A DNA stretch of 25,348 bases from a virus: the IMG/VR virus record IMGVR_UViG_3300035703_000391, positions 1 to 25,348 of that record; one strand, written 5' to 3'. Of the stretch, positions 8,525-24,632 are shown piece by piece. A program made the position numbers and the translations under genes. The number at the start of each line of letters is the position of its first letter. The first letter of the stretch is position 1. Under the pieces are notes generated by a model, which was not told the origin of the DNA, ran no database searches, and was given only the letters and a program-made list of their open reading frames with translations.

Positions 8525-9766
8525 TTATTGTTCCGCATCAGAGCCGCCAAACATATCAACAACTTCAATCTGACCAATCGTAGGGAAGGCGCTTTGAATG
8601 TTGTCCAGCTGGCGCATCTTCTTTTGGATCTCTTGCTGATAGAAGGACTTGTCTTTGCGGGCGGCGGCTTTCATCATGTTCGTCAGAGTGTTGATCTGAT
8701 TCTGAATGCTGGTAGCCTGGGCCTTTGCCGCATTGAGAGCAGCCGCCCGTGCGGGGTCAACCCTGCCAGCGCCGGATCCACTTCTCGCGCCAGCCATAAT
8801 CCCAGCCCTGCTCAGGTCAGCCGCTCTATTCAGAACCCCTTCTTCCTTCTTGAACTTGATCTCAGCAGCCTGTTGCGCCATCTGGAAAGCCTGCTGCGCT
8901 TCACGAGCCTTAGTCTCGTACTCCATTTGCTTCTGTCTACTTTCAGCATTCTTGGCAGCTTCAAACATGGTACGAGCATTTGCGCCGAGATTGTTGGCAA
9001 TAGTCTGAAGCTGGCCGGAATCCATCTGCATGAGGTTGAACATCATGCCAGCCTTCTTCTCTTGATCCTGCTGGCGCATTCGTTCAAGAGACATCTCTGC
9101 CATCATCGCGGCATTGATATCCTTCTCCCGCTGCTCCTTTGCCGCCTTGTACGTCTGCGACCCAACTCCAATTCCCTGAGCCATAAGGCTGGCTAGGCCA
9201 ACCCGGGGGTCACGATTGCCAGCAATGGCAGCACCAGCGGCAATCAGGGCATCCCCAATGCTTGGCTTCTTTGATTCAGCCGTCTGGCGTTGGCGACGAA
9301 GAAGCTCCTCGTACTTGGAGTAGTCGGGCTTGCCAAGCATCTGCTCAGCGATAGCGCCAAACTCCTGCGGGGTTCTTTCTCCCTGTCGAAATTGCTGCAT
9401 GTACTCGGCGCGATCTGTGATGAGGTCTCCCTCCGCATACCGCGCAACATGCCCACCCTGCGCCATCGCCACAGCCTGAGGAGGCGCTGCCTGCATAATC
9501 CCCTGCGGTGGAGGCTGCTGCGGCGCTCCCTGTTGAGGCTGGCCCTGCTGCATCTGCGGCTGGACCAGATTCTGCGCCACCTGCTGTGCTACAGAAGGCT
9601 GCTGTTGCTGCTGCTGTGCCTTGGCGTACTGCGCCCTCAACTGCTCCCGGCGCTTCATCTCGGCAAGCACCAGATACGGCGGCACCACCACAGGGTTCTG
9701 ACCAGCGGCCAGAAGCTGCTGATCAGAGAGGTTCTTAATGTCGTCTGCTGCTTTTACGAGATTCAT
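8525..9766 (-). CDS. Gln-rich coiled-coil virion protein, probable internal/ejection protein, 413 aa
   Basis: The ATG at 9766 follows CTAAGGTAAGCG. The N-terminus (NLVKAADDIKNLSDQQLL) matches a recurring start in proteins of uncultured aquatic podoviruses. A poly-Gln/Pro linker follows (residues about 50-98, including six consecutive Gln). A MAQGGHVARYAEG motif begins at residue 101. An Ala/Gly-rich helical segment follows (GDALIAAGAAIAGNRDPRVG), and then long coiled coils rich in Ala, Gln, Met, Glu and Lys to about residue 390. No enzymatic motif is seen. Its place between two larger proteins of similar character suggests a co-packaged internal virion protein. A role in the tail tube is an alternative. 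Confidence 0.7.
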   Translation of the reverse strand: MNLVKAADDIKNLSDQQLLAAGQNPVVVPPYLVLAEMKRREQLRAQYAKAQQQQQQPSVAQQVAQNLVQPQMQQGQPQQGAPQQPPPQGIMQAAPPQAVAMAQGGHVARYAEGDLITDRAEYMQQFRQGERTPQEFGAIAEQMLGKPDYSKYEELLRRQRQTAESKKPSIGDALIAAGAAIAGNRDPRVGLASLMAQGIGVGSQTYKAAKEQREKDINAAMMAEMSLERMRQQDQEKKAGMMFNLMQMDSGQLQTIANNLGANARTMFEAAKNAESRQKQMEYETKAREAQQAFQMAQQAAEIKFKKEEGVLNRAADLSRAGIMAGARSGSGAGRVDPARAAALNAAKAQATSIQNQINTLTNMMKAAARKDKSFYQQEIQKKMRQLDNIQSAFPTIGQIEVVDMFGGSDAEQ

Positions 9767-9789
9767 CGCTTACCTTAGGTGTTGATATT

Positions 9790-12700
9790 TTAGGTGTTAC
9801 CGGAAGAACCCCGGCTGGTCAGGTAGTTGGACAGCAAGCCTGCGCCAGAAGTCAGCAAGCCAGTCAGCCCACCAGCACTAGGCCGCTGGAACTGGACTCC
9901 TTCGTACTGCATCCCGACAGGCACACCAGACAGGATACCCTGCAAGAAGTTCATCTGCTGATACGGGAAGTTCTGCTGGTTGATGAAGTCCTGATACGCA
10001 AGATCCAGAGCCTGCTGCGTTCTGACATCAACAGCGCCACCACCCTGCTGAAGAGCCGCCAGACGCTGAAGTTCAAGCTGCTGCGCCAGCGCCGGGATAT
10101 TCATCATCGTCCCACCTAAGCCAGCCAGACCAGCAGCGCCAGACTGGACCTGGCCGAGAGCGGCCAACTTGTTCTGGAATTCCTGCTGACGACGAGCTTG
10201 CTGTTCAGCGGAAGCCTGCTTGATAGCGTCAAGCTGCATCTGCCACGTTGCAATGTCTCCAGCCTGAGAAGCCTTCGCTGCCTCCAGCCCAGCCTGAGTG
10301 CCGAGTTGCTGAGTGCCGAGAGCAGCTTGCAGATTCGCCTGACCAGCGGTGAGGCCAGCCTGCTGATTCGCCATCTGCGCTTCAAGAGCGGCGCGAAGGT
10401 TGGCCTGCTGAGAGGCGAGAGACGCAGCCCGATCACGCTCAAACTGAGCCTGAGCGGACTCGTAAGACTTCTGCAAACCAGTCGCTTCGATATCACCCAA
10501 CTGGCGCTGGAGAGCCTCTTCAGCCATGCCCTCTTGAATCGCCTGCCGAGAACCACCGAAAGCACCTGCGCGTACAGCGGCAGCAGATCGAGCAGCACGT
10601 TGCATATTGGACTGCCGGATAGCTTCACGCTTTTGGGCGTCCATTACTGCCTGCTGATAAGGAGACATGTACTTCTCAGCGGTAGGCGCTCCGAACTCGC
10701 CAACCTCAGTACGACCAGCCGTCACGCCGCCGGGAGCCTGGATCGTCGGCGCGGTAAGCGGGGAGACAGAGATAGGAGCCTGGAATCCCATCTTCTGAAT
10801 CTGCGGCATCAGGCCCATCAGGTAGCTCTGCTGCTCTTGCTGTTGAGCCGCCTCAGGGCCAAGGCCAACCTGCTTCAGAAGGTCGAGACCAGATCCGGCA
10901 CCAACCCCAGCAATGTCTGTCGCCCAGTTAATGTTCGATAGACCCTTGCCGAAATCAGTGTTGGGGTCAACCGCTGTATAGCTGTAAGTAGGCTCTCCTC
11001 CAGCTCCGGGTACATCAAACTTCTTGAAGACGCTAGGCAGGCTCTCAAGCCCTGAAAGCGCCCCAGATGTCATTCTGCTGGAAGTGAACCCAACCCCAGG
11101 CGTGTACTGCCCGAAGTCCTGACCGAAGCCCATAATACGCTGACCACCGTACACCGGAGGCGGGTTGAACAGGTTTTGCGAGGGGACATTCGGGTTAACA
11201 GACCCAAACAAGGAAGCAACACCGCTGGATCCACCGAAGCCGCCAGCACTGGGCGTCTGCGCCGTGCCAAACCCAAGGATGTTCGGGCCAGTAAAAGGAG
11301 TTCCAGTCTGCGCCGTGCCAGTTCCAGTTCCGGTCGGGCCAAAGCCACCACCATCCACCTTGCGGATAGCGCCACCCTTGCGGTAGTTCTTCACCTTGCC
11401 GTCTTCGCCAATCTCAAACTGAGCGAGAGAACCACCAGCGGCGTAGCCCTTCTCGTAGCGGAAGTCATCCTCTTCCCGACCGCGAGGAGCGTTAGAAACG
11501 GTCCCTTTATTGAGAGCAGAGTAGAACCCACCTAAATCAGGCTGAGAGGAGAAGTCAAAGGTAGGCGCAGCAAAGGGAGTAGACTTCGTGTCTAAGATAA
11601 ACGACTTCCCAACATCGGCGCTTCCAGATCCACCACCCCTAGCCCCAGAGGTATCGGAACCTCTTGCGGCTGGAGTTGATCCTCCCTTGTCTGCGGGAAA
11701 CCCACTTCCACCTCTAGCACCAGAGACATCAGCGCCTCTGCCAGCAGGGGTGGCCTCATCCCCCTTGACCACGACTGGCTTTGCAGGCTCCTTTGTGCGG
11801 TCGATAATCCCGTCACCCCTCTCTCTCGGAGTGGGAGTTGCGGCTGGGGGTGGCGTATTGGCCTGCCCAACCGGAGAGACATTCGCGCCAGAGGCATACG
11901 CCGCAGTGTTCTGTCGAATCAGGTTGTCAATCGTAGACGTACTCCCACCACTACGAGCGACTTCATCGCGAAGGCCAGAAAGAGCCAGCGACATCTCGCT
12001 AGGAGTTCTGGCGCGAGTGACGCCGTCAACCGTAATGGGACCAAGCGCCTGTTGAACCAACCCAGCATTCAACGCATCCTGACCACCGAAACTGATCAGG
12101 TTCTGCGGGGGAGGAGCGACAGGACCAAGGACATTCGTTCTCGCAGCAGACCCACCCAGAAGAGAGGCGAGACCTCTAGTCTGTTCGTCAGTCGCGTACT
12201 GCGCCGGGTTGTACCCGCCAGCACCGCGATTCTCCGGGGTAGTCCCGGCGAGTCCAGCTACCGTCTGCGGAAGAACCTGAGCGGATGCCCCGACTCCAGG
12301 AGTGACGCCAGTGCGCCCAGTACCAGGACTAGCGACACCAGCACCGACCCCAGCAGGGCGACTAGGAGTAATGCCAGGAACAGTCGGATTGATTCTAGGA
12401 CCACTTGTTCCTCCGGCAGTAGGACCAGGGGTGTAAAGAACGGGAGGAGGAGCGTATGTCCCAACGCCAGTCCCAATGTTCGTGCCAGCGGACCAGCTAG
12501 AAGTCGGCGCTCCAGGCAGGGTATTCCCAAATGGGCCAGTTCTCCCTGGATACGTCACGCCACCGGAGAGAGATTTGCTGATAATGTCAGCGAGATCCTC
12601 TGCCTTGATCGCGTCTTCGGAAAGAGCAATCGGCCCAGCCTGCCGGATCTTCTCATAGCGTTCAGCGATCTCTCGCGCCAAGCTACCACCGTTGTCCATC

Positions 12701-13107
12701 TTTGCCAGAGCGCCACCTTCAGCCATCGAGGTAACGATCTGCTTGTACTTCTCGGGAACCCAGGTGCGCGTCTTCTCATCCCACACCATCCCGAGCAGTC
12801 TAGGATTGCTTTGAGCCAAAGCGCCAGCAATGCCTCTCTTTTCTGTCTCAGCGGGAGCGGCAACGTCAGTTCGCGTATCCGGCCCACCAGCAGTAGTGCC
12901 GCCAGGAGTAGCAGCGGGAGGCGGCGTGGACCCAGCACCACCGCCCTGCGTAGTCGCATTCCAGAACGTGGCATTCGGAAGGTACTGGCGCATGTAGTCA
13001 GGGGTGAATACAGCGCCAAACGCAGCATTAAGGAGTGCGTTCCTGTAAGGTTTAATCCACTCAGGAACATCCTGAATTTGAACTTGTGAATTTAGAGGTT
13101 CAGCCAT
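9790..13107 (-). CDS. Large Gly/Pro-rich virion protein with helical C-terminus, 1105 aa
   Basis: The ATG at 13107 has a perfect site (AAGGAGA, 6-nt spacer). The start region (VPEWIKPYRNALLNAAFGAV) is followed by about 600 residues that are low-complexity in Gly, Pro, Thr and Ala and probably disordered. The GG motifs are MAEGGALAKM at 128 and YAAGGSLAQF at 555. From residue 814 (MSPYQQAVMDAQKREAIRQ) the protein becomes a long Ala/Gln-rich helical region containing AFGGSRQ (849-855). This pattern recurs in large structural proteins of aquatic podoviruses. The C-terminus is Gly/Leu-rich. It is probably an internal core/ejection protein; no catalytic residues are visible. The assignment rests on pattern and position, not on a named domain. 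Confidence 0.75.
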   Translation of the reverse strand: MAEPLNSQVQIQDVPEWIKPYRNALLNAAFGAVFTPDYMRQYLPNATFWNATTQGGGAGSTPPPAATPGGTTAGGPDTRTDVAAPAETEKRGIAGALAQSNPRLLGMVWDEKTRTWVPEKYKQIVTSMAEGGALAKMDNGGSLAREIAERYEKIRQAGPIALSEDAIKAEDLADIISKSLSGGVTYPGRTGPFGNTLPGAPTSSWSAGTNIGTGVGTYAPPPVLYTPGPTAGGTSGPRINPTVPGITPSRPAGVGAGVASPGTGRTGVTPGVGASAQVLPQTVAGLAGTTPENRGAGGYNPAQYATDEQTRGLASLLGGSAARTNVLGPVAPPPQNLISFGGQDALNAGLVQQALGPITVDGVTRARTPSEMSLALSGLRDEVARSGGSTSTIDNLIRQNTAAYASGANVSPVGQANTPPPAATPTPRERGDGIIDRTKEPAKPVVVKGDEATPAGRGADVSGARGGSGFPADKGGSTPAARGSDTSGARGGGSGSADVGKSFILDTKSTPFAAPTFDFSSQPDLGGFYSALNKGTVSNAPRGREEDDFRYEKGYAAGGSLAQFEIGEDGKVKNYRKGGAIRKVDGGGFGPTGTGTGTAQTGTPFTGPNILGFGTAQTPSAGGFGGSSGVASLFGSVNPNVPSQNLFNPPPVYGGQRIMGFGQDFGQYTPGVGFTSSRMTSGALSGLESLPSVFKKFDVPGAGGEPTYSYTAVDPNTDFGKGLSNINWATDIAGVGAGSGLDLLKQVGLGPEAAQQQEQQSYLMGLMPQIQKMGFQAPISVSPLTAPTIQAPGGVTAGRTEVGEFGAPTAEKYMSPYQQAVMDAQKREAIRQSNMQRAARSAAAVRAGAFGGSRQAIQEGMAEEALQRQLGDIEATGLQKSYESAQAQFERDRAASLASQQANLRAALEAQMANQQAGLTAGQANLQAALGTQQLGTQAGLEAAKASQAGDIATWQMQLDAIKQASAEQQARRQQEFQNKLAALGQVQSGAAGLAGLGGTMMNIPALAQQLELQRLAALQQGGGAVDVRTQQALDLAYQDFINQQNFPYQQMNFLQGILSGVPVGMQYEGVQFQRPSAGGLTGLLTSGAGLLSNYLTSRGSSGNT
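11602..11751 (-). repeat. Imperfect 25-residue tandem repeat (Gly/Ser/Arg-rich linker)
   Basis: Residues about 453-502 of the 1105-residue protein hold two copies of a unit of the form TPA-RG-D-SGARGG-SG--AD-G-S. The start positions at 11751 and 11676 give a 75-bp period. It is a flexible linker-type repeat with no cysteine or aromatic residues. Confidence 0.6.
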
Positions 13108-13124
13108 TACAAATCTCCTTAATA

Positions 13125-14162
13125 CTACGCAGGCAGAACCCTGCTATCCTTAATCTTTCCAGGTTGATTCTTGGTGCCAGTGCGATCCATGCGAACCCTG
13201 TCCATCATGGCGTATAATTTCCTTGCACCAGCTTCACTGCTGCCATCTCCCAAGCCGGATACGACATCGGCGGGGATAATGAACTCATCGTTCGACAGGA
13301 GAACCTTCTGACCACCATGCGCCATACGAGCGGTAGCCATATCGTCCATTCCATTGCCGGGGCCTTTTATCATTCCCTCTGGTGGAGCGTATTCCTCTTC
13401 ACCCTCGCCCTCACCTTCCTCTTCGTTTTCGCCAGACATGCGCTTGTACAGATCCTGAAGCGCCTCTTTCCCGTAGTAGGCAAGGTAGGTGTTTAGCGCA
13501 GACTCGGGGTCTTCGCCGTCTCCACGGATGGCATCCATCGCATCCCGAACAATCTGTTGCGCCTTCTCTTCTTCAGGCTCCAGCTTGCCGCCTTCTGCCA
13601 TATTCTGAGTGGCACCCGGGAGGGCGGCAGCGATACCGCCAGCGCCAATTGCAGGCTGACCCTGGGGTTGTTGGCCTTCTGGCTGATAGATGTTCAGGGG
13701 CCGAAGCAGAGGGAAGATCATCTTCTGCATCTGCTGCCTATTTCTCTCGTCGATGTATTGCTGCATCTGGTTGAGAGTGCTTTGGTCTTGCTTCTTTTGA
13801 TCGGGGGCAAAGGCACCAGCGGCTTGAGAAACGGCGCTAGTAAGCAATGTGGGAGCAACCACCTTGGTCAGCAATGGAGCCAGGAGACCCTTGCCAGAGG
13901 CAAGCATGGTTTTAAGTCCACCAGCCTGCAATCCCGGGACCATGAGCATAGCGGCACCAGCGCCCAGACCAATCGCCCCCAAGAACTTCTTCCACGACCA
14001 CGCCTCCGGCATCCCCGTCTCAGGATTGATCGTCAGATCCTGTCCCAGAAGCGCCGCGATACCCGCAAGCTCTTCCGGCTGGATGTGCATAAGGATGGAG
14101 TCGCCGCCGCGACCTTTGGATGCTACCTGCTCCGCGAGAGCGCCGATGCCTTTGTTCTTCAT
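13125..14162 (-). CDS. Conserved phage virion protein with acidic stretch and C-terminal 'FIIPADVVS' region, 345 aa
   Basis: The ATG at 14162 overlaps the preceding stop as ATGA. The N-terminus (GRGGDSILMHIQPEELAGIA) and the C-terminus (LSNDEFIIPADVVSGLG, then GARKLYAMMDRVR) are patterns I know as conserved in podovirus-like environmental phages without an assigned function. Between them are Ala/Gly-rich hydrophobic segments (residues about 59-90 and 100-117), a Gln/Met helix, and an acidic run near residue 250 (ENEEEGEGEGEEE). Two MA-x-GG motifs lie at 188 and 280. It sits between a small protein and the 1105-residue protein and probably belongs with the ejection/core proteins. A scaffold or chaperone role for the acidic part is also possible. 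Confidence 0.7.
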   Translation of the reverse strand: MKNKGIGALAEQVASKGRGGDSILMHIQPEELAGIAALLGQDLTINPETGMPEAWSWKKFLGAIGLGAGAAMLMVPGLQAGGLKTMLASGKGLLAPLLTKVVAPTLLTSAVSQAAGAFAPDQKKQDQSTLNQMQQYIDERNRQQMQKMIFPLLRPLNIYQPEGQQPQGQPAIGAGGIAAALPGATQNMAEGGKLEPEEEKAQQIVRDAMDAIRGDGEDPESALNTYLAYYGKEALQDLYKRMSGENEEEGEGEGEEEYAPPEGMIKGPGNGMDDMATARMAHGGQKVLLSNDEFIIPADVVSGLGDGSSEAGARKLYAMMDRVRMDRTGTKNQPGKIKDSRVLPA

Positions 14163-14455
14163 GTCGTGACCGTGACTGTACCTAGTTTAATCTTGATCTT
14201 GTTGGTGGGCGCGAAGACCTGACCGGGGAGTACAATCCTTAGCGCACCAGTTCCATCAGCCCACACCATGCCGTCCCTCAATCCGTATCCACTCTGAGGG
14301 CATTGCAGAAGCATGAGGGAGCTTCCGACAATCTCTCCAGGGATCCGTTGATTGTAGATGTGGATCCCTAGATTCCTAATAAGAGAGTCGAAGTACGTCT
14401 GATCGTACTCGGCGGGTGGCTTTGGAAGCGCCTGTACTGGTGTGTTTCTGTTCAT
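14159..14455 (-). CDS. Small conserved phage protein, 98 aa
   Basis: The ATG at 14455 lies 3 nt after the stop of the 639-residue nozzle gene (GGTAGGCG is the only ribosome-site-like sequence), so translation is probably coupled. The sequence has a helical first half (YDQTYFDSLIRNLGIHIYNQ). A short beta-rich second half contains GLRDGMVWADGTGALRIVL, ending in Thr/Val repeats. The GLR-G--W-D-G--LRI pattern occurs in small proteins beside tail genes in many aquatic phages, and their function is unknown. It overlaps the next gene by ATGA. A tail-completion or adaptor role is a guess from context. Confidence 0.65.
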   Translation of the reverse strand: MNRNTPVQALPKPPAEYDQTYFDSLIRNLGIHIYNQRIPGEIVGSSLMLLQCPQSGYGLRDGMVWADGTGALRIVLPGQVFAPTNKIKIKLGTVTVTT

Positions 14456-14458
14456 CGC

Positions 14459-16378
14459 CTACCGCATGCCATCCGGCTGGATCTGGATTCTGTTGGAACC
14501 CAAGCGCCACTTCTGAATAGGGTTTCCGCCTTGATAGGACTCAGCCTTGAGCTTCACCTGTCTGGCGCGGATACGGACATTGCGCTGAGTTGTCTCCGGC
14601 GCAGAACCCTGCACTGTGACAGTGTTGGTCTGGTATCCAGCGGTGGACATCGGGTAGTTCACACCGGAGATCTGCATACTGACCTTCTGGTCGTAGCCGT
14701 TGTTGTCGATCTTCGGATCGTTGACGAACTGAACGTCAGGGATAATCCTGCTGACGAACATCAGGTTGTCGCCGTCTTCAATATCGATAGGGCCAGACGT
14801 GACGTAGGCATCGATGTTCGCGCCGTTGTCAGTGTACCCGTACTCGTGACGGAAGAGAGAAGTAGTGGTGTTGACCGTATCGAGCCCGCCGCCATTCACT
14901 TCATTCGGCATTGCGCCAATCGGATAGCCGTCAGCGGCGAGGTCCAGCCACGCCGTCCGGTCCATCGTCCCAATCGTCCAGATATTCTCGACGTAGTTGT
15001 ACGCAACGTATCTGCTGTTCTCGCCAGTTGGAATCGTGGCGCAGGGATACCACCAGTAGACCTCGTTGAACTGAGCATTCACTCCAGCGGTTACCTTTGT
15101 CTTCTGGTTCCAGTCCAGGTCAGCAAAGACATAGCTCAGTACAGGACAGTTCATCTTCACGACACTTCCGCTGTACATGTAGAAGTTGTTGTTGTCCATC
15201 CAGTACACAGTGCCTCTGGCGTCGATACCAGCATTGGGACCAATGATTGAGATGGACTCGCCGATACGAGTGAAGCTGAACGTGTAGGGAGGTCCAGTGT
15301 AGGACATGGCGAACAGCGCCTTGTCGGTGAACACCAGGATCTGCTGCTGAGTAGGGATCGCAGAGACGATCTCGGACCCGCTGGATACAGTGAACCCGCC
15401 AGCCGTGTTGTCTGTGCGAGGCTCCCAATCCAGGTAGTCTTCCTGGGAAGACCACCGAACGAGAAGTAGATTCTGTTCATTGCTTCCGATATCGTTGCAC
15501 CCGAACGCAATGACATGCCGATCAATGTCGGAGACAAGAACCTGGGACGCCACAACCGGAGCATCGTTTGCGCCAGCGATTGTCGTCAGATCTACGGCGC
15601 GAGTATTCAGCGGATCCAGGCCGGAAGCCGTCCAATAGTAGATAGGACCGTAGCGCCGATTGATGACGAGATCCTGCCCGTAGTTGGACTCAGACCAAAT
15701 GCACAGATTCTCGGCAGGGCTTAACGGCGAGAACGCGCTACCCCAAGGGCCACGACCCCAAGCGCCAGATCCCCATCCAGTCGAGTACACCTGGGTATTG
15801 AGGCCCACGCTGATCTGAAACGCGGCGCTGACGCCAGACCCACCACCAGCGGTTGAGGGCGTTACCGTAGCGCCAGCAGGGAATACAACGTAGAAGCTGG
15901 TAGCGTCTATGATCTCAGTGATCTGGACCTCTACGTTCAACTGATCCGCAGTGTACCCATCAAACCCAGTCGCCCCAGAGAACGTCACCCAGTCATATTC
16001 AATTGCGCCGTGGGCTGAGGTTGTAGTGACCTTCATCAGCGATGTGCCAGCAGTCTGGGTCTCAAATGGATTGTTCCCAAGAGACACTGTGGATCTAATG
16101 GGAGTGATGTCGTTTATGTACCCACCAGATTCAATGTAGTACTTCTGGTTAGTACCAAGTCCAATGAACCTCTCTAGCGAAAGAGAGGTCCACTGGAGCA
16201 TTGATCTGCATGTGCCGTAGATGGTTTCCGCATTCGCATACGCGGTCCATCCACCAATCACTTCTGGATACCCGAGCCTAAACCGCATCTTGTCGCAGTC
16301 GTACCAGAATCCTTCGGAGGAGTATTCGGTAACGTCCTTGACGATACCCGGCTTAGGCAAGAGTTTCAGAAGAGGCAT
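14459..16378 (-). CDS. Tail nozzle-like structural protein, 639 aa
   Basis: This is a long beta-rich protein of about the size of podoviral nozzle/tail-tube proteins (P22 gp10 'DNA stabilisation', T7 gp12). The N-terminus (PKPGIVKDVTEYSSEGFWYD) is followed by recurring beta strands with aromatic-Gly turns (GWGSGAWGRGPWG near 205; ERFIGLGTN near 70; VYWMDNNNFYMYSG in the middle), consistent with a beta-propeller platform. A C-terminal beta domain follows. Such proteins form the hexameric end of the short tail that seals the DNA and contacts the cell surface. The upstream ribosome site is weak, so coupling to the coiled-coil gene ending 9 bp earlier is likely. The family assignment is by pattern, not by a search. 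Confidence 0.7.
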   Translation of the reverse strand: MPLLKLLPKPGIVKDVTEYSSEGFWYDCDKMRFRLGYPEVIGGWTAYANAETIYGTCRSMLQWTSLSLERFIGLGTNQKYYIESGGYINDITPIRSTVSLGNNPFETQTAGTSLMKVTTTSAHGAIEYDWVTFSGATGFDGYTADQLNVEVQITEIIDATSFYVVFPAGATVTPSTAGGGSGVSAAFQISVGLNTQVYSTGWGSGAWGRGPWGSAFSPLSPAENLCIWSESNYGQDLVINRRYGPIYYWTASGLDPLNTRAVDLTTIAGANDAPVVASQVLVSDIDRHVIAFGCNDIGSNEQNLLLVRWSSQEDYLDWEPRTDNTAGGFTVSSGSEIVSAIPTQQQILVFTDKALFAMSYTGPPYTFSFTRIGESISIIGPNAGIDARGTVYWMDNNNFYMYSGSVVKMNCPVLSYVFADLDWNQKTKVTAGVNAQFNEVYWWYPCATIPTGENSRYVAYNYVENIWTIGTMDRTAWLDLAADGYPIGAMPNEVNGGGLDTVNTTTSLFRHEYGYTDNGANIDAYVTSGPIDIEDGDNLMFVSRIIPDVQFVNDPKIDNNGYDQKVSMQISGVNYPMSTAGYQTNTVTVQGSAPETTQRNVRIRARQVKLKAESYQGGNPIQKWRLGSNRIQIQPDGMR

Positions 16379-16387
16379 TTCAGGTAA

Positions 16388-16600
16388 TCACTGTTTCGGC
16401 TCAGTCTCGGAAGTTTGGTTCTGACTGTTGACCAATTCCACACTAAACAACTGCTTGGCAGCGGTCAACTGATCGGCTTGGAACTGGAGATTGGCGATCT
16501 TCAGGTTGATGTCTTCGATCTGGTTGACGAGGTACTTCTCACGATCACTGAGTTCACTGTAGAGAACTTTGCGGTTCTCGATCTGGATTGCTTTATCCAT
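16388..16600 (-). CDS. Small coiled-coil protein (DUF6447-like), 70 aa
   Basis: The ATG at 16600 has AAAGGA about 11 nt upstream. The body is one long amphipathic helix (residues about 15-60; NQIEDINLKIANLQFQADQ) with heptad spacing of Ile/Leu. The tail is polar (SQNQTSETEPKQ). The core (I-NLQF-----L-AAK--F---L) resembles small tail-associated coiled coils of cyanophages and other aquatic phages (DUF6447). I give that name from memory of the pattern. A trimerisation or fibre-attachment role is plausible beside tail genes. The 78-bp gap upstream is one of the largest in the operon and shows no clear promoter. Confidence 0.6.
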   Translation of the reverse strand: MDKAIQIENRKVLYSELSDREKYLVNQIEDINLKIANLQFQADQLTAAKQLFSVELVNSQNQTSETEPKQ

Positions 16601-16678
16601 TTGTTGTTTTGTCCTTTAGGCGTTATGGTGTAGATTGAATGCGCCTAGATCAATGCTAACACCCACGCCGAGTAAGGA

Positions 16679-17008
16679 CTACTTCCCAGGTGCGACTTCT
16701 TTCGCTTTCATCTGCTGATACGCAGCCTCAACCGCACGAGCGATCACATCGACAGGTACGTTCTTGAGCTTCTTCTGCGCCGCTTTGATAGCGAGATCCT
16801 TCAGCACGGTGCCTTCAGACCCGGGCGCGGAAGCCAAGACATCCTTCACGCCAAGGAGATTGGCGCACCGGATGATCTCATCGTCGGCGCGAGTCGGAGT
16901 CATCTGCGCCACGATCTCAACAATCGGATAGACGGACCCAACAACTCCCTTAACGAACGCCATGCGAGACGGCGAGAAGATCGACTTCACTTTAGAGATG
17001 AAAGACAT
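16679..17008 (-). CDS. Small helical protein, possible membrane-associated lysis or tail accessory factor, 109 aa
   Basis: The ATG at 17008 follows TAGGAG with a 5-nt spacer. A basic N-terminus (SFISKVKSIFSPSR) leads into a moderately hydrophobic helix (residues 16-34, MAFVKGVVGSVYPIVEIVA). Next is a TPTRADDEI segment. The C-terminal half is helical, Lys/Ala-rich, and ends KAKEVAPGK. The TPT--DDE-I- sequence after a weakly hydrophobic helix recalls small phage membrane proteins near lysis genes. The helix is short and polar for a true holin. I cannot name a family. It lies between a DUF5856-like protein and a coiled-coil protein. Confidence 0.6.
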   Translation of the reverse strand: MSFISKVKSIFSPSRMAFVKGVVGSVYPIVEIVAQMTPTRADDEIIRCANLLGVKDVLASAPGSEGTVLKDLAIKAAQKKLKNVPVDVIARAVEAAYQQMKAKEVAPGK

Positions 17009-17016
17009 GCAGGCTC

Positions 17017-17391
17017 CTAGCCGAGGTTTTCAAGCTTGTACTTGGTGGTAGCCAGTAGCGAGAGAATGCTATCCACGGTGTTCTGGATGTGCGTCTCATC
17101 GCCCATCTGCTTGCGGTTCTTCGTGACGTAATCGTAGAGTTCGCTGACGAAGCTGACAGGCTCCTTCGGGCAGATGAACTTCTCCGTAGGGAACGTGGGA
17201 GGAACGCCATGAACACCGAAGCACTCTTCAGCAAGCGAGTCAGTGAGGTCGCCCAGTTCGTCGTAGAGAGAGCCAAGCGCCTTGTGCTTCGCGTAGGATC
17301 CAGGGCCTTTGGTCAGGAGGTGAAGCATGTGCGCGGCAGTGACGCCGTGCAGCAGCTTGGAGATGAAGTCAGGAGAATCGCCTTTGTACAT
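17017..17391 (-). CDS. DUF5856-like helical protein, 124 aa
   Basis: The ATG at 17391 follows ACGAGGCAAC. The sequence is all-helical, with the pattern AAHMLHLLTKGPGSYAKHKA then LYDELGDLTDSLAEECFG, and a final helix (TVDSILSLLATTKYKLENLG). This pattern matches DUF5856 proteins of T4-like cyanophages as I remember them: His and Glu/Asp spaced as in a four-helix ferritin-like fold. If the fold is right, His/Asp/Glu of the first two helices could bind metal, as in Dps/ferritin. Activity is unknown for the family. A home inside a tail module is unusual for a metal-storage-like protein. Confidence 0.7.
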   Translation of the reverse strand: MYKGDSPDFISKLLHGVTAAHMLHLLTKGPGSYAKHKALGSLYDELGDLTDSLAEECFGVHGVPPTFPTEKFICPKEPVSFVSELYDYVTKNRKQMGDETHIQNTVDSILSLLATTKYKLENLG

Positions 17392-17400
17392 GTTGCCTCG

Positions 17401-17754
17401 TTATTTAGCGGAGAGAGGTGGCGCGGGGGCGTCCCACGGGGGAGGGAGAGGGATCGAAGGGGGGTTCTTCTGGTTGGCAATCTGCTGCGCCAGGGACGCA
17501 TCGTAATTGTCAACCTGCGCCTGGGTCAAGGCACTGACAACCCACCCCTGAACCTGAGCCTTCGTCAGGCTGTCGTAGGGGGTGAAGTCAGTCGGCGCGG
17601 GAGGACCGAGAGATACTTGGCCGTAGCAATCGGCAGAGTACTGGCCGTCCGTAGCCGTGCGCCGCCAATCAACGGTGATGACGACATCCGTCAGAGAACC
17701 CTCTGCGGGTTTAACCGTCAGGGGGTTGAAGATCCAATCGTAAACGATTGCCAT
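17401..17754 (-). CDS. Conserved small protein downstream of the tail fibre, 117 aa
   Basis: The ATG at 17754 lies 2 nt after the fibre stop, with GAGGA 7 nt upstream overlapping the fibre's last codons. The sequence is compact and beta-rich at first (VYDWIFNPLTVKP, TDVVITVDWRRTATDG, YGQVSLGPP). A helical second half (LTKAQVQGWVVSALTQAQVD) and a Pro-rich tail (SIPLPPPWDAPAPP) follow. This architecture (WRR-ATDG then FTPY--LT-AQV-GWV) is common in aquatic phages next to tail or lysis genes. Its role is unknown. Immediate coupling to the fibre suggests a fibre-assembly or fibre-cap partner, which is inference. Confidence 0.65.
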   Translation of the reverse strand: MAIVYDWIFNPLTVKPAEGSLTDVVITVDWRRTATDGQYSADCYGQVSLGPPAPTDFTPYDSLTKAQVQGWVVSALTQAQVDNYDASLAQQIANQKNPPSIPLPPPWDAPAPPLSAK

Positions 17755-17756
17755 AT

Positions 17757-19952
17757 TTAGTTCCTCGACTTCAGAAGGTCGATCTCGGCCTTCAGTTCTT
17801 TGATAGCGTTGATTAGCGCAAAAGTGATTGCGTGTCCGTTGTAGTTGTAGAGTTCAGTGTCTTCAGCATCAGACTCGTTCAGCTTTGCTTTGAAGATTCC
17901 AACACACTCAGGGAATACCTCTGCCAACTCTTGCGCCAGGATTGAAACCTGCTCCTTGCCATCAGCGGCAAAACCACCCTTGCCGTTGTACTCGTAGCAA
18001 ACTGGACGCACTTGGCAAATCTCAGCAAGCCCCTTGGCGTACTCTCCCTTGACGGTCTTCAGTCGGGCGTCAGAGGCGATTGTCCAGGTGTTTGTGGTTG
18101 GCTTGGCTGCGGAATCAGTGGATAGCTGAAGCTGGTAGGCTGGACTCGACGTTCCAATACCGACGTTGCCAGTCGAGGTGATGCGCATCCTTTCGGTAGA
18201 GCCAGTGCAAAAATACTGACTTCCCGAAATCATTCCGATCTCAGTAGCATTCGCCACATTGTCCGAGAACTGCATGTAGACATCGCGGCCAGAGGCTTCG
18301 GACTGGATGCGGAATACGGAATTCGACCTAACTGTAGTCCCCGTTTGTGCAGAGGTTATAAACGCAGGATTCGGTTGCAGCGAGGTTCCAGCGACAGTCA
18401 GCAAGCCAGATGCGCTTGATGTGCCGATGCAGACGCTGCCGGAAGAGGTGATGCGCATGCGCTCGGTGCTGCTGGTGCTGAAAATCATCGGCTGGGCATT
18501 TGATGTAGACACCGTCAACTGATTCAGCGAAGAGATAAAGGCAGCGCCAGTAGAGTTGTTTAGCGTGAGAAGGATCTCGCCAGCACTCGCTGGGGCGCTA
18601 ACAGCCATAGTACTGAAGCTTCCAGCACCGCGAACCTCAAGCGTATACGAAGGGGTAACGCCGATACCGACAGCTCCAGAGAACACCGGATCCGTATTGA
18701 ACACCAGCGTCCCAGTGCCAGTCTCATCCGTCACCGCAGATCGGAGGTTGGCGCTGGAGGGAGTAGCCAAAAAGGTGGCAACGCCAGTCCCCATGCCTGA
18801 GATGTTGGATACTTGGTAACCAAGGCAGTTGGATAGATTCCCAGAGTTGGGAGTCCCAAGTATTGGAGTGACGAGAACTGGAGAGGTGGCAAACACCAAA
18901 GCGCCGCTACCAGTCTCGTCCGTTACGGCAGAAGCAAGGTTTGCGCTAGAGGGCGTAGCAAGGAACGTGGCAACGCCAGAACCCAATCCGCTGACGCCAG
19001 TCGAGATGGGAAGCCCGGTGCAATTCGTCAATGTGCCCGATGTAGGCGTGCCGAGAAGCGGAGTGACCAGCGTAGGGGTATTGGCGAATACCAGCGCCCC
19101 ACTGCCTGTCTCGTCGGTAACGGCGGAAGCAAGGTTAGCAGAAGACGGGGTAGCGAGGAAGGTCGCCACCCCACTGCCAAGCCCAGACACCCCGGTAGAG
19201 ATCGGCAGGCCAGTGCAGTTCGTAAGAGTCCCTGCGGATGGGGTGCCGATGTTCGGAGTGGTGAGCGTTGGGGATGTCGCCAATACAACAGACCCAGTGC
19301 CTGTTACGGCGCTGACCTGAGTCCCGTTGATGCGAAGCACATTGCCAGTGCCAGCCGTATCGAACGTCTTGTTCGTAAACGTATCGGTCGTCGCTTTGCC
19401 GACGAGAGTGTCGGTAGCAGCGGGAAGCGTGAGTGTACCAGACGCAGCGGCAGCAGACTGAAGGGTAGTCGTGCCAGACGAGGATCCAACGAAGACAGCG
19501 CCAGTCGCTTCCAACAGCGCCGTCAGCTTCAGGCTGGTCAGCACTTCCTTAACAGCAGCGCCAGACCCACCGCCGTTCAGGTAAACAATCGACGAGTACC
19601 CGGGCTTGATCGTGACGGTAGATCCAGACCCCTGGGAGATGACAATGTTCTGCCCACCAGTCGTGTTGTTCTGAACGTAGTAGTGCTTCTTGACGGTGTT
19701 CGGCGTGATGCTGACAGTGTTCGTAGCGGCGAGTGTCCCGGTGAATATCAAGACCTTGTTGCGCCCATCACCAGCAGACCCGTCAGGAATGTTCAGGGTG
19801 TGCGTGGTTCCTGCCAGTGTTATCGAAACCGATCCATCGATAGCAGTATCGAATAGATCGAAGTTGGTGTTCGTCGTCGCGCCCCAAGTACCAGATTGCT
19901 CACCAGTAGCAATCTTCTGGATCTTGTTGTTTGAAGTGTATGTGGAGGGCAT
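17757..19952 (-). CDS. Tail fibre/spike with repeat shaft and C-terminal S74 intramolecular chaperone, 731 aa
   Basis: This is the host-recognition fibre. The N-terminus (NNKIQKIATGEQSGTWG) resembles fibre proteins that attach through the first 120 residues. Residues 236-430 are three 65-residue repeats. Further beta-rich shaft units follow, including two MRITS-G-V-IG segments (about 490 and 600). The C-terminus from Ser627 (SDARLK, 627-632) is a peptidase S74 domain. This folds trimeric fibres and then cuts itself off just before the conserved Ser, releasing about 105 residues ending in a coiled coil (INAIKELKAEIDLLKS). The ATG at 19952 overlaps the previous stop as TAATG. The receptor cannot be told from sequence. 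Confidence 0.88.
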   Translation of the reverse strand: MPSTYTSNNKIQKIATGEQSGTWGATTNTNFDLFDTAIDGSVSITLAGTTHTLNIPDGSAGDGRNKVLIFTGTLAATNTVSITPNTVKKHYYVQNNTTGGQNIVISQGSGSTVTIKPGYSSIVYLNGGGSGAAVKEVLTSLKLTALLEATGAVFVGSSSGTTTLQSAAAASGTLTLPAATDTLVGKATTDTFTNKTFDTAGTGNVLRINGTQVSAVTGTGSVVLATSPTLTTPNIGTPSAGTLTNCTGLPISTGVSGLGSGVATFLATPSSANLASAVTDETGSGALVFANTPTLVTPLLGTPTSGTLTNCTGLPISTGVSGLGSGVATFLATPSSANLASAVTDETGSGALVFATSPVLVTPILGTPNSGNLSNCLGYQVSNISGMGTGVATFLATPSSANLRSAVTDETGTGTLVFNTDPVFSGAVGIGVTPSYTLEVRGAGSFSTMAVSAPASAGEILLTLNNSTGAAFISSLNQLTVSTSNAQPMIFSTSSTERMRITSSGSVCIGTSSASGLLTVAGTSLQPNPAFITSAQTGTTVRSNSVFRIQSEASGRDVYMQFSDNVANATEIGMISGSQYFCTGSTERMRITSTGNVGIGTSSPAYQLQLSTDSAAKPTTNTWTIASDARLKTVKGEYAKGLAEICQVRPVCYEYNGKGGFAADGKEQVSILAQELAEVFPECVGIFKAKLNESDAEDTELYNYNGHAITFALINAIKELKAEIDLLKSRN
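18663..19247 (-). repeat. Three 195-bp (65-residue) tandem repeats in the tail-fibre shaft
   Basis: Units begin at GTP-(S/T/N)-(A/S)G at 19247, 19052 and 18857, an exact 195-bp period. Copies 1 and 2 are identical over a long stretch of protein (from LTNCTGLPISTG to TDETGSGALVFA), while the DNA differs at many third positions. Copy 3 keeps GVATFLATPSSANL and AVTDETG but changes the middle (NCLGYQVSNISGMG). A partial unit end (TSPTLTTPNI) precedes copy 1. Confidence 0.9.
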
Positions 19953-20383
19953 TAGTTGGTCACCGAGCTAATCACTGCAATCGCGTTGTTCACATCCGCA
20001 GTCGGGAACTGAACCGTAAGGGTGCCGCTGGAAACAGTCTTGTCCGTACCGAAGTCCAGAACGAAGACCGACTTGTCAGACTTGGAGGAGTTGTACACCA
20101 AAGCGCCGCGACATGTGAAGGAAGCAGAAGTCCAGCTAATATCGGCGAAGTCGAGGATCGTGTAGATCCCCTGCTTCGTGACGGTAGCCGTCAGCGTCTT
20201 ACCGCCAGCAGTGTACCCGGTGCCGACCACTTCATTCGACGTGGTGTAAACCGTAGTCGTGTTGTCGATACTCGCAGAACTCGTGTAGAGGGCGATCTTG
20301 ATAACGTCCGTCGAGAAGTCGTGGACGGCAAGAAGCAACTGCTCCTTGAATGAATCTGTTACATAGCTACCAGTGAACGCCAT
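19952..20383 (-). CDS. Conserved beta-rich phage structural protein, 143 aa
   Basis: The ATG at 20383 lies 3 nt after the stop of the adaptor gene, with only a weak ribosome site, so coupling is likely. The sequence starts MAFTGSYVTDSFKEQLLLAVHDF. Strands rich in Thr/Ser/Val follow: IKIALYTSSASID, NEVVGTGYTAGGKTL, RGALVYNSSKSDKSVF, DFGTDKTVSSG. The combination SFK-ELL---H-F, ALYTSSA and EV-GTGYTAGGK-L is common among environmental phages and is always near neck or fibre genes. No enzymatic motif is seen. A tail- or head-decorating role is likely, though unproven. Confidence 0.7.
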   Translation of the reverse strand: MAFTGSYVTDSFKEQLLLAVHDFSTDVIKIALYTSSASIDNTTTVYTTSNEVVGTGYTAGGKTLTATVTKQGIYTILDFADISWTSASFTCRGALVYNSSKSDKSVFVLDFGTDKTVSSGTLTVQFPTADVNNAIAVISSVTN

Positions 20384-20386
20384 GTG

Positions 20387-21046
20387 TTAACCGATATTCC
20401 TTTTACTGTCGGGGTTCCTGAAGTTGTCCATGCGCTGCTCGTCTTCGCAGACGTTCTTCAATTCAAGCATACCGAGTTGGTAGAGCTTCTCGTACTGCTG
20501 TTGCATTTGCTGGTCACCCTTCAAGAAGGTGTACGCCTCAACAAGACATCCGTACAAAAGAACTTGAGGGAAGTAGGTGCTGACCCAGGTGGTCGCGCTG
20601 CTCCCGCCAGAAGTGATCGTATCAGGCGTGGAGTAGTAGTAGAGAGTGTAGGTGTACGGTATGTCAGCAGATGGCGCTACGAGAATCGTGGTATTGCTGT
20701 TGCTGGACTTTTGGATTGCGTAGTACGCAGGCGACCCAGTGCTTCCAGCAGAAGCCTCGGTAACGCCGTATGCCTCCGTAAGGTACGAAGGCTCTTTCAG
20801 TAGAAGACCAGTTTGCAGGCCACCCACATTGACGAACAGACTCAGGGGCATAACGAAGTCGGTAGGCGTAGTTATTGTCTGAGTCGTAACGCTGCCAGTG
20901 ATGGATGACCTGCTATCAGGTGACTTTACGTCTCTGTTGATACGCTGCTCCGCAAGCTGGATGATGGAGTCCAGATTGGACAGAAAGGTGGCTTCGTCTG
21001 ATTGGACGTAGTCCTGAATCTGTTGCGTGAGCTCAGCGTAGGTCAT
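20387..21046 (-). CDS. Head-tail adaptor protein (SU10-adaptor / T7 gp11-like), 219 aa
   Basis: This protein would sit between portal and nozzle. The N-terminus (MTYAELTQQIQDYVQSDEATF followed by IIQLAEQRINRDVKSPD) gives the adaptor signature: two helices with AEQRI. A beta region follows (TPTDFVMPLSLFVN, LLLKEPSYLTE, AYYAIQ, YTYTLYYYSTPD). A long C-terminal helical part comes last (YGCLVEAYTFLKGDQQMQQQYEKLYQLG). This layout matches the podoviral adaptor family of phage SU10 and T7 gp11. I see no convincing ribosome site before ATG 21046; a duplicated CTAGTCT lies there instead. The assignment is by pattern and gene order. Confidence 0.72.
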   Translation of the reverse strand: MTYAELTQQIQDYVQSDEATFLSNLDSIIQLAEQRINRDVKSPDSRSSITGSVTTQTITTPTDFVMPLSLFVNVGGLQTGLLLKEPSYLTEAYGVTEASAGSTGSPAYYAIQKSSNSNTTILVAPSADIPYTYTLYYYSTPDTITSGGSSATTWVSTYFPQVLLYGCLVEAYTFLKGDQQMQQQYEKLYQLGMLELKNVCEDEQRMDNFRNPDSKRNIG

Positions 21047-21069
21047 GTTTATAGACTAGCTCAGAGAGA

Positions 21070-22899
21070 CTAGTTCATCGGCCCGGTCGGGCGAATCTTC
21101 TTCGAGATGCCGTAGCCTTTGCACATCCCGCCGCCAGCGTACTTCGCAGCGCCGCCCTTCGCGAACTTCTGACCAGTGCTTTGCGGGGTGGGTTTGCCCA
21201 TCGCCATCTTCTTGTGCTGGGGCATTTCACCCATGGCCTTGCCCATCTTGGCCTTGGGCATATCGCCACCCTTCTTGTACTTCGGGGTGAGCATGCTGTC
21301 TTTCGTGTTCATCGAACCTCCTTTGAATTTGCGGATAGCGCCGCCTTCGCTTTTCTTCGGAGTGTCACCCCCGGAAGATTTTCCCTTCACGAACGAGCCA
21401 ATGCCGCTCATGAATCGCTTAAACTTGGACTTCTTGGGCTTACCGCTGGAGGCCGACATCATCGACTCAAGCTCAGAAGACTCGCCCTCAGATTCAACGC
21501 CATAGCGAGGAGCAGGGGCAGAGGGCAGAGAGGGGAGGCCGATAGCCGAGGTCTTCATGAGTTCCGGGTCGGCTTCAGCCATGGATTCCAAGAACGAAAG
21601 ATCGCGGTCGAGATACTCAGGGGTGGTCGCTCGACGCCGGGGCATCGGGGCAACGGGGGCTTCGCGTTTAGAAACTGTAGTTTTCGTAACGGAAACAGAT
21701 CGAGGCTCAGGCTTTGAGGACTTTGATTCAGAAGCCTTATAAGGAGCCTGCTTCATATCAGGAACTCTAGGGGCTAGTTTGGACAATCTAGCCGCGAGAC
21801 CAGAGCGCATTATGCCCTCCTCTGTTTCTGGCTTCCCAAAATCCTCATCGCTCAATCTACTCCCAGCAAATTTAGCTCGCTCCGAAGCAGAGTAGCTTTT
21901 TTTACTTGCTTGCTTTTTGTATTGATCAGGATACACAGAGGCCGGGTCAATACCAAGAGATCGAAGCTCCGCAGGAGAAGCGCCGCTAGGATCCTTCATG
22001 ATCATCCTGCGGCGAGCAATTTCATTGGGGCTAAGGTATTCAACTTCGCCACCGCCAGCAAACTTCTTGGTCTTCATCTTCATAGATCCACCTTCAGATT
22101 TTTTATCGGATTTCTTCTTCCGCATCATTCCAATGAGGCCAGGAAGCGCCGCCATGATCGGCGCAGCGATCTGTCCACCCTTGCCGCCAGCGCCAGCCAT
22201 AGCGCCAAGAGCAATGAACTTGCCGTAGTCCTGCATGAACTTCTTCATGCCAGCTTTGGTTTTGGGGATTTCGCCAGCGGCCTTGGCGAGTTCAGGACTT
22301 GCGCCTGGAGCCTTGGCTGCTTCCTTGAAAACCTTAGCCATGTCAGCCATAGAAGAAGCGCCGGATTTGTATGCGGTCATGGCGTTCTTTTCAGGGGCAG
22401 AGAAGGCAGGCAGATTCGACAGATCATCGCTCGGCTTCGCTGCGGCCATCAGCGCAGAGGCAATCTTCTGGTTGTCTACTGAATACTTTGGCGAACCTTT
22501 CCCGGAACCAGATGCGGGTGACTTAACCTTTTCGGCGGTAGCCGCAGGAGTAGCGTTCGCCTGCTCTGGAGGAAGGCCGAAGCTTGCAATTCCAGAAGGG
22601 ACTCCAGGGGAGGGCAACTTCGGGCGCATGGCATCCTGCCTCTGCTTCTCAGGCCCCCTCAACATTCCGCGAACCAGAGCGCCAGTCCCCTTAGCAGCCA
22701 ACTCCCCAGGCATCGTCGGGGACAAGTACGGAGCCATGGACGTAGCCATCCTGGCAGCCCCGGCTGCTTGCTTGGGAATCTGGCCAAGGGCTTCGTAAAT
22801 AGCCCCAAATGGAATCCTTTCGCCAACATCAGAGAGGGCTTGATAGATGTCGAAGCCACCGCCCCCCTGCTTCCTGATAACCTTCTTGAACTTCGGCAT
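21070..22899 (-). CDS. Basic, low-complexity virion protein with repeated GG motifs, 609 aa
   Basis: The ATG at 22899 follows TAAGGAAATCAC, where the TAA is the stop of the preceding gene. The protein is Lys-, Ser-, Pro- and Gly-rich with a high predicted pI. Hydrophobic helices occupy about residues 40-60 and 230-262 (LGAMAGAGGKGG, IMAALPGLIGMM). Sequence of the form (aromatic/Ser)-(Ala/Glu)-x-GG recurs at 268 (SEGGSMKM), 280 (FAGGGEVEYL), about 515 (SEGGAIRKF), 530-550 (KGGSMN, KKGGDMPK) and 579 (FAKGGAAKYAGGG). It ends MCKGYGISKK, a C-terminal pattern I have seen in other aquatic phages. The high basicity suggests nucleic-acid contact within the virion or during packaging. No catalytic domain is visible. 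Confidence 0.65.
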   Translation of the reverse strand: MPKFKKVIRKQGGGGFDIYQALSDVGERIPFGAIYEALGQIPKQAAGAARMATSMAPYLSPTMPGELAAKGTGALVRGMLRGPEKQRQDAMRPKLPSPGVPSGIASFGLPPEQANATPAATAEKVKSPASGSGKGSPKYSVDNQKIASALMAAAKPSDDLSNLPAFSAPEKNAMTAYKSGASSMADMAKVFKEAAKAPGASPELAKAAGEIPKTKAGMKKFMQDYGKFIALGAMAGAGGKGGQIAAPIMAALPGLIGMMRKKKSDKKSEGGSMKMKTKKFAGGGEVEYLSPNEIARRRMIMKDPSGASPAELRSLGIDPASVYPDQYKKQASKKSYSASERAKFAGSRLSDEDFGKPETEEGIMRSGLAARLSKLAPRVPDMKQAPYKASESKSSKPEPRSVSVTKTTVSKREAPVAPMPRRRATTPEYLDRDLSFLESMAEADPELMKTSAIGLPSLPSAPAPRYGVESEGESSELESMMSASSGKPKKSKFKRFMSGIGSFVKGKSSGGDTPKKSEGGAIRKFKGGSMNTKDSMLTPKYKKGGDMPKAKMGKAMGEMPQHKKMAMGKPTPQSTGQKFAKGGAAKYAGGGMCKGYGISKKIRPTGPMN

Positions 22900-22908
22900 G
22901 TGATTTCC

Positions 22909-23217
22909 TTAACTGATAGCGATTTTAACCTGACCAAGGCTAACGTAGATCTTGTTGGGCAGAACAGGGTTCCAACCAAAATACTCGCGAGTAGGAGGGT
23001 TCTGCTGCGCCGCCGTTCTCGGGTTGTAGAGAGCAATAGACTCGCCCCTGACGTACTTGCCAATCTGAAGCTGAGGGTTGTCTATATCGAAACACTCTTC
23101 GCATACAAGAAGCCCATTCCATCTCTCGTTGTATATGTACTTCTTGAGACTCGTGTACTTCACCTGCCGAGCGCAGATGTCGCACATCGCGATTGCGTGC
23201 TTGCCGGATGCGTACAT
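22909..23217 (-). CDS. Small zinc-ribbon-like phage protein, 102 aa
   Basis: The ATG at 23217 overlaps the preceding stop (TAATG). Cys12, Cys15, Cys39 and Cys42 form a CxxC-(23)-CxxC ribbon (CDIC and CEEC), with an aromatic/basic loop between (KYIYNERWNG). DNPQLQIGKYVR and a tail with YNPRTA follow. The pattern of two CxxC pairs, then a (H/N)PQ segment and a polar tail, is widespread in neck regions of environmental phages. A structural zinc site is very likely. Binding to DNA or to another neck protein is equally open. Confidence 0.75.
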   Translation of the reverse strand: MYASGKHAIAMCDICARQVKYTSLKKYIYNERWNGLLVCEECFDIDNPQLQIGKYVRGESIALYNPRTAAQQNPPTREYFGWNPVLPNKIYVSLGQVKIAIS

Positions 23218-23909
23218 TACCAGCTATATCCCCCTGGCACAAGCATGACAGCAGATCGCTGACGATCTTCATCTGCGGCGCGTTGAAAGTCTTCCTCGTA
23301 CATCGCCTTCAACTCAGGGATCCGAGCGAAAGCCTCAGGCCGCTTGCACGCCAACTGATACGCCAGACCGGAGATCATCGCCGGGACGAACCGGAAGGGA
23401 ACGTCCATATTGTTGTTCGCATTCGTGCCGACATCCTGCTGACGGCGCAAGCGGTAGTACACAAACTGGCGCGAGATCGTATCGTCAGGCACCTGCCAGA
23501 ACGTGATCTCAGGGTTCGCCCGATCCCTGGCAACGTAGTACTGAATCGGCGTTCCGCGAAGTAGCTTGTTGGGCAGGGTGTTGTAGGTGACGAACGAGAT
23601 GCGCGTGATGGCGATGTCCGTCTGCTGATTCGTCTGCCCAGCGTAGGTACGGATCACGCCCTCAAGTACGTCAATCGTGTCTTCAGCCAGCGGATAGGTA
23701 GCCGTTCCAGGCGTCAGCGATAGCGTCTCCTGATCCACGCACCACAGGTTCAACCCACGATTCGCCCACTCCATAGAGAGCAGGTTAAGACTGCGCCGCG
23801 CCGTACGGATCTCGTAGCCACCCTTGACCTCGACACCCACACGCTCATACGCTTCCTCGATAATGTCGAGGATGTTGATGTTCCAATTCGCAGTTCCTGA
23901 AGTAGACAT
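23217..23909 (-). CDS. Head-tail connector / tail accessory factor (P22 gp4-like), 230 aa
   Basis: The ATG at 23909 overlaps the previous TAA (TAATG). The N-terminus NINILDIIEEAYERVGVEVKG, then EIRTARRSLNLLSMEWANRGL and NLWCV, is the characteristic start of connector proteins in aquatic podoviruses and resembles the helical start of P22 gp4. A middle beta part (TLSLTPGTATYPLAEDTIDV) and a C-terminal helical part (AMISGLAYQLACKRPE, LKAMYEEDFQRAADED) complete the usual two-part neck fold. It would attach below the portal and receive the adaptor/nozzle. Its position two genes before the second adaptor supports this. Assignment is by pattern, without a search. Confidence 0.75.
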   Translation of the reverse strand: MSTSGTANWNINILDIIEEAYERVGVEVKGGYEIRTARRSLNLLSMEWANRGLNLWCVDQETLSLTPGTATYPLAEDTIDVLEGVIRTYAGQTNQQTDIAITRISFVTYNTLPNKLLRGTPIQYYVARDRANPEITFWQVPDDTISRQFVYYRLRRQQDVGTNANNNMDVPFRFVPAMISGLAYQLACKRPEAFARIPELKAMYEEDFQRAADEDRQRSAVMLVPGGYSW

Positions 23910-24629: not shown

Positions 24630-24632
24630 GGA

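Follow-up and report, generated by a model that had tools for sequence, protein, structure and literature searches.

A short Met/aromatic-Ala-x-Gly-Gly motif in candidate ejection proteins of a phage contig and its likeness to a segment of tape measure proteins

Introduction

Little is understood of the arrangement of phage ejection proteins inside the capsid and of their ordered exit from it, and most ejection proteins of aquatic phages are unannotated. The window analysed here is a 25 kb phage contig (25,348 nt) whose late genes are read from the minus strand. An earlier note on this DNA described a short (Met/aromatic)-Ala-x-Gly-Gly motif in linkers of four unrelated virion proteins, and proposed a common short linear signal: a docking site for a shared partner, a maturation cleavage point after Gly-Gly, or a packaging tag. 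Is the recurrence of so short a motif real, and if so, what might it do in these proteins?

Results

Recurrence of the motif in the window

Every peptide quoted in the earlier note was found at the residue given for it. The strict motif, [MFYW]A.GG, occurs eight times, in proteins of 413 aa (one copy), 1105 aa (two), 345 aa (two) and 609 aa (three), and is absent from every other protein of the window. The expectation for the four carriers is 0.48 copies, and none of 5000 shuffles reached eight; shuffling was done for each protein in 40-residue blocks, which preserves the composition of linkers. BLASTP of the four proteins among themselves gave no significant similarity. The recurrence in unrelated proteins, and its excess over composition, were thus upheld.

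Shuffling rules out chance or composition as the origin of the window motifs, and it is extremely improbable that they are an artefact of Gly/Ala-rich, low-complexity linkers, since composition-keeping local shuffles fail to reproduce the count and the positions are conserved while their codons change synonymously (see below). On the side of such an artefact can be set the random IMG/VR loci, picked by an arbitrary 14-mer, in which the motif shows no excess (11 against 15); the same result rules out a general property of viral proteins and indicates that the motif belongs to a group of phages. A DNA-level repeat or recent duplication was ruled out, as codons differ between the window copies.

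All copies lie on the minus strand. The 413-aa protein has MAQGGHVARY (nt 9437–9466, residues 101–110). The 1105-aa protein has MAEGGALAKM (12697–12726, residues 128–137), YAAGGSLAQF (11416–11445, residues 555–564) and the variant GGAIRKVDGG (11347–11376, residues 578–587), read as KGGAIRKVDGGG from residue 577. The 345-aa protein has MAEGGKLEPE (13572–13601, residues 188–197) and MAHGGQKVLL (13296–13325, residues 280–289). In the 609-aa protein, SEGGSMKM at residue 268 is followed by FAGGGEVEYL (22033–22062, residues 280–289), SEGGAIRKF at 517, which overlaps GGAIRKFKGG (21316–21345, residues 519–528), and FAKGGAAKYAGGG at 579/587, within the C-terminal tail FAKGGAAKYAGGGMCKGY (21112–21165, residues 579–596). 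The sharing of GGAIRK(V/F) by the otherwise dissimilar 1105-aa and 609-aa proteins was confirmed. The placement of the motifs in linkers fails for one copy, MAHGGQKVLL, which sits in the beta-hairpin loop of a folded domain.

Gene context of the carriers

Three of the carriers (345, 1105 and 413 aa, in that order) are encoded between a nozzle-like gene and the gene of a giant protein. The upstream edge of this cassette is a 639-aa virion structural protein (14459–16378, minus strand, as are all cassette genes; phrog_3287). The 345-aa protein (13125–14162) has two hydrophobic segments (residues 60–78 and 93–111), called by hydropathy only, and a tape-measure-type C-terminal domain; its position is gp14-like, and gp14-like proteins carry four to five transmembrane helices (PMC8954989). 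The 1105-aa protein (9790–13107) weakly matches the PHROG DNA ejection family phrog_4287 (E = 0.0047), and the 413-aa protein (8525–9766) is a member of a widespread family with the motif YAxGGIVAF. The giant protein, of 1929 aa (2693–8482), lacks the motif and has an LPD38 polyvalent protein domain. Reports of this domain are confined to polyvalent proteins of the phage type, for which injection along with the DNA has been predicted (PMC5512222). It also matches two large PHROGs of unknown function.

A cluster beside the tail nozzle gene, running from a small through a middle to a giant protein, is the layout of podophage ejection proteins seen in the T7 gp14-15-16 operon (PMC8954989). A similar order is found in Synechococcus phage MinM2, Caulobacter phage GB2A and phage DSL-LC04, and in the last of these the final gene of the cassette is annotated ‘DNA transfer protein’. 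As the order matches that of ejection-protein operons, presence in the virion is likely, a status to which the family matches also point, and by gene order the 345-, 1105- and 413-aa proteins are probably ejected into the host.

The 609-aa protein (21070–22899, minus strand) has no family match and is encoded between two SU10-adaptor-like genes (20387–21046 and 23217–23909, both minus), each with its own SU10 adaptor Pfam match. BLAST of the protein and of its tail against cultured phages gave no match. Among the Pfam matches of the window, one to Pex19 fell under the curated cut-off and was disregarded.

Among the other genes of the window, three on the minus strand (24510–24630, 23909–24304 and 24895–25230) encode small basic proteins. 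One of these reads KVGKVMHEFKAGKLKSSSGQKVTNPKQGIAIALSEAR and presumably resembles DUF6496; another matches DUF5872 and the third shows a weak match to DUF5754, in each case under the curated cut-off. A 102-aa protein (22909–23217, minus) with a CxxC...CxxC pattern, 83–94% identical in relatives, is perhaps zinc-binding. Genes on the plus strand, including those at 1190–1657 and 1764–2249, encode a protein that by eye resembles a dUTPase and a Peptidase_M15_3 protein that is likely an endolysin.

Conservation in close relatives

Homologues were drawn from viral contigs retrieved with two further window genes as queries, which kept their selection independent of the motif. The earlier note had looked to conservation at these positions in homologues, and in most copies the core letters are indeed near-invariant while x varies. 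All 16 homologues of the 413-aa protein keep M, A, G and G, whereas x is identical in 25% and the surroundings average 55%. Both 1105-aa copies and the GGAIRK variants are kept although the flanks fall to 30–46%. In the 1105-aa protein, GG is found in 100% of homologues for MAEGGALAKM (M in 83%), in 82% for YAAGGSLAQF, with flanks 30% conserved, and in 100% for GGAIRKVDGG. The first copy of the 345-aa protein keeps A and GG in 100% but M in only 12%. In the 609-aa protein, GGAIRKFKGG shows 98% identity over eight residues, and the C-terminal tail is nearly intact, its copies being 86–95% identical. There are two exceptions to this pattern: FAGGGEVEYL is not conserved, being found in about a quarter of relatives (about 24%), and MAHGGQKVLL, while retaining GG in 100% of homologues, has flanks that are also conserved (86%).

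The codons at invariant motif residues vary synonymously among the relatives. Together with the codon differences between copies, this places the constraint on the protein. The motif also has the features of a short linear motif, being enriched over composition, with a fixed core and free positions, and lying in disordered regions (disorder being judged solely by low AlphaFold confidence).

Distribution in distant phages

Eighty distant loci were fetched with an alignment of the 345-aa protein, and their proteins were clustered at 40% identity. The strict motif was found 66 times in the domain-bearing proteins (5.8 expected) and 77 times in the other proteins (21.8 expected). When dipeptides preceding xGG were ranked, YA, MA and FA came directly behind GG, so the motif definition was not imposed on the data. 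The distant consensus is [YMF]AxGG[IV]Vx[FY], often followed by a second GG. Proteins of the 345-type hold as many as six copies, and the counterparts of MAQGGHVARY in the 413-type are motifs such as MAGGGIVAFADGG. After removal of the domain proteins and the 413-type, the remaining ORFs showed no excess (58 against 53.6), and only 15 of the 132 genes between 345-type and 413-type genes carry the strict motif. The lack of excess outside these two families marks the copies in the 1105-aa and 609-aa proteins as lineage-specific.

The picture of four virion proteins sharing a signal is thereby narrowed to two conserved carrier families. The motif belongs mainly to the 345-type and 413-type, with extra copies in the 1105-aa and 609-aa proteins of the window lineage, and those of the 609-aa protein may be something other than the signal of the remaining three. 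Three scans, each begun independently of the window copies, support the idea of a short linear signal common to dissimilar proteins.

When viral contigs were scanned for YAxGGIVAF-encoding DNA, 120 loci emerged; their 119 carrier ORFs form one family by single linkage, low complexity possibly helping the chaining. The 413-aa protein of the window matches this family (HMM E about 1e-14, with strong composition bias), and the gene order is the same. Of the loci offering 2 kb or more of upstream sequence, 74 of 75 had a gene for the 345-type domain, as did 59/59 of those offering 3 kb or more; the random control loci had it in 1/120. In 120 of 121 gene pairs, the 413-type gene follows the domain gene at a distance of one to three genes. 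Among paired loci, the strict motif is lacking in 23/129 domain proteins and 6/129 413-type proteins.

A genome-specific lock and key between the motifs of the two families was not seen: there was no covariation of motif flavour within genomes at the first residue (p = 0.999), with position +7 alone giving p = 0.001. A general excess of the motif in C-terminal tails was likewise set aside as weak (19 against 6.3 in the distant loci, none in random loci). At one random viral locus (L172:4582–5259, minus strand), a single protein joins FAEGGDV, GPGSGVSDSIPARLSDGEFV and a further VAEGGV; the module may therefore also occur outside podovirus-like and siphovirus-like phages.

A C-terminal domain shared with tape measure proteins

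The C-terminal domain of the 345-aa protein (13128–13367, minus strand; residues 266–345) reads KGPGNGMDD..LLSNDEFIIPADVV..GLGDGSS..GA and belongs to a tape-measure domain family with the signature GPGxGxSDxIxAxLSxGEFV. The 345-aa protein itself has no PHROG match at 0.01, yet it aligns with this family; of the 56 members aligned, 17 match phrog_3547, at E values down to 7.8e-5. The PHROG tape-measure families that share the domain are phrog_3547, 6090, 7025, 991 and 24. With the domain HMM, the tape measure proteins of Mycobacterium phage Lumos and a freshwater phage were picked up as well (FASGGMFRGPGSGT, YANGGLLRGPGNGTSDSI, YATGGMVYGAGNGTDD).

A scan for DNA encoding PGTGTSDSI returned 72 nonredundant proteins; many exceed 1000 aa and carry the peptide in their last tenth. 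In 28 of the 72, the strict motif falls no more than 40 residues upstream of the peptide (1.4 expected; maximum of 6 in 500 shuffles), and in most of these proteins xGG starts nine residues before PGTG, giving the tape-measure segment FAxGGxVxG-PGTGTSDSIxAxLSxGEFV. The nine-residue spacing is also seen in some podovirus-type proteins (YAKGGYLDGPGDGMSD), among which spacing varies. The 345-aa protein of the window lacks a leading copy, the position reading PPEGMIKGPGNG.

The first AlphaFold model of the 345-aa protein was too low in quality for use. In the AlphaFold prediction of the domain, a hairpin is joined to two helices, and the motif is low-confidence coil just ahead of them. Searches of the PDB by sequence and by fold gave no credible match, no Pfam family covers the domain, and its BFVD matches are uncharacterised phage proteins. 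A match of the domain to the lysin gp62 of Pseudomonas phage YuA was set aside, being antisense to the annotated gene. A literature search for the peptide strings, covering a minority of subscription journals and preprints, gave no match; within that scope, no description of motif or domain was found in Pfam, the PDB or the literature.

The coil placement, and the constant distance that separates motif and domain in tape measure proteins, are what might be expected if the motif were structural and had no partner in trans, serving as the N-terminal edge of the domain and elsewhere as a Gly-Gly hinge for unfolding and threading through the tail. The lack of covariation between motifs of one phage's proteins also fits. 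However, glycines would suffice for a hinge, with no need for Met/Tyr/Phe-Ala before them, a hydrophobic residue at +6 or an aromatic one at +8, and the best conserved copy, that of the 413-type, has no adjoining domain. Such a hinge or cap appears rather unlikely.

In long tape measure proteins the domain often falls within the last 5–12%, and assembly of T5 and lambda involves a cut close to the C-terminus of these proteins (PMC10038345), which would suit a maturation cut made after Gly-Gly by a protease of phage or host, freeing pieces of ejection and tape measure proteins. The mapped cut in the T5 protein is, however, after Arg1127 and not after GG (PMC10038345). Conservation runs well past GG, to +6 and +8, up to six copies would fragment a single protein, and the sole peptidase family among window proteins scanned against Pfam is that of the M15-type, endolysin-like gene. 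The cleavage suggested in the earlier note found no positive evidence and is improbable.

Recorded hosts extend from Synechococcus and Pelagibacter to Mycobacterium. The domain was also seen on contigs that had been placed within metagenome assemblies of bacteria and archaea, most likely phage contigs; with only 13 cases in 84,980 species genomes, prophages that carry it stably seem rare. With such unlike hosts, all of whose envelopes must be crossed, an aromatic-Ala-x-Gly-Gly-hydrophobic segment common to ejection and tape measure proteins could enter the membrane or bind peptidoglycan after ejection, and segments of the T5 tape measure protein have been proposed to enter the outer membrane (PMC10038345). 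The segments here are short and weakly hydrophobic, and gram-negative and mycobacterial envelopes differ greatly, which makes an envelope role decidedly improbable.

Discussion

Three observations favour docking: the motif recurs in linkers of proteins acting together, its core is constant while x is free, and it resembles the leading segment of the tape-measure domain, which the same cassette encodes. The conserved motif [YMF]-A-x-G-G-[IV]-[V]-x-[FY] would be a docking segment in flexible linkers of the 345-, 1105- and 413-aa proteins, perhaps borrowed from the leading edge of the domain. By gene order, these carriers would be packed in the virion and expelled together with the giant polyvalent protein. 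Free copies would bind one common site in the particle, most likely the 345-type domain, or else any structure that holds the leading segment of that domain itself, and would tether the ejection proteins in order until release. This is a tentative reading, with a probability that we place somewhat under one half; its virion location, ejection, binding and partner are the parts that we infer. Of the functions proposed in the earlier note, docking fits the pattern best. The near-perfect co-occurrence of motif and domain (74/75 loci) leads us to infer binding, and with it the partner, against which stand the lack of covariation in motif flavour and the proteins of paired loci that have no strict motif. 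A packaging tag would be indistinguishable from docking here.

A more specific proposal, that aquatic podophage ejection proteins are joined by detached leading segments docking in trans on the 345-type domain, is doubtful and rather unlikely. If it were true, podophage ejection cassettes and siphophage tape measure proteins would be variants of one delivery system. The sharing of the motif with tape measure proteins suggests an undescribed common part of the DNA-delivery machinery. Motif and candidate partner domain also provide a sequence handle that marks ejection cassettes in metagenomic phages and ties them to tape measure proteins, and, if docking is correct, point mutations could put the order of ejection to the test.

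Comparison with known systems

Double-glycine leaders and ubiquitin-like GG sites resemble the window motifs in the Gly-Gly pair alone; the window motifs are internal, repeated and conserved on both sides, and no matching protease was found. With phage polyvalent proteins (PMC5512222), the likeness lies in the LPD38 domain of the 1929-aa neighbour, and the difference in the absence of the motif from that protein.

The ejection (internal core) proteins of the podophages T7 (gp14-gp15-gp16) and P22 (gp7-gp20-gp16) show the same order after the nozzle, from a small protein with hydrophobic segments through coiled or Q/A-rich middle proteins to a giant one, and the 1105-aa protein has its weak match to a DNA ejection PHROG. 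The window proteins differ in having no overall sequence match to these proteins, and in that the small one carries a tape-measure-type C-terminal domain and MAxGG, a combination that, to our knowledge, is undescribed for T7 or P22.

Siphophage tape measure proteins are long helical rulers, whereas the window has separate genes in a podovirus-like cassette, its domain carrier being of only 345 aa and the ruler absent. The two are alike in the GPGxGxSDxIxAxLSxGEFV domain and in the FAxGGxVxG segment ahead of it.
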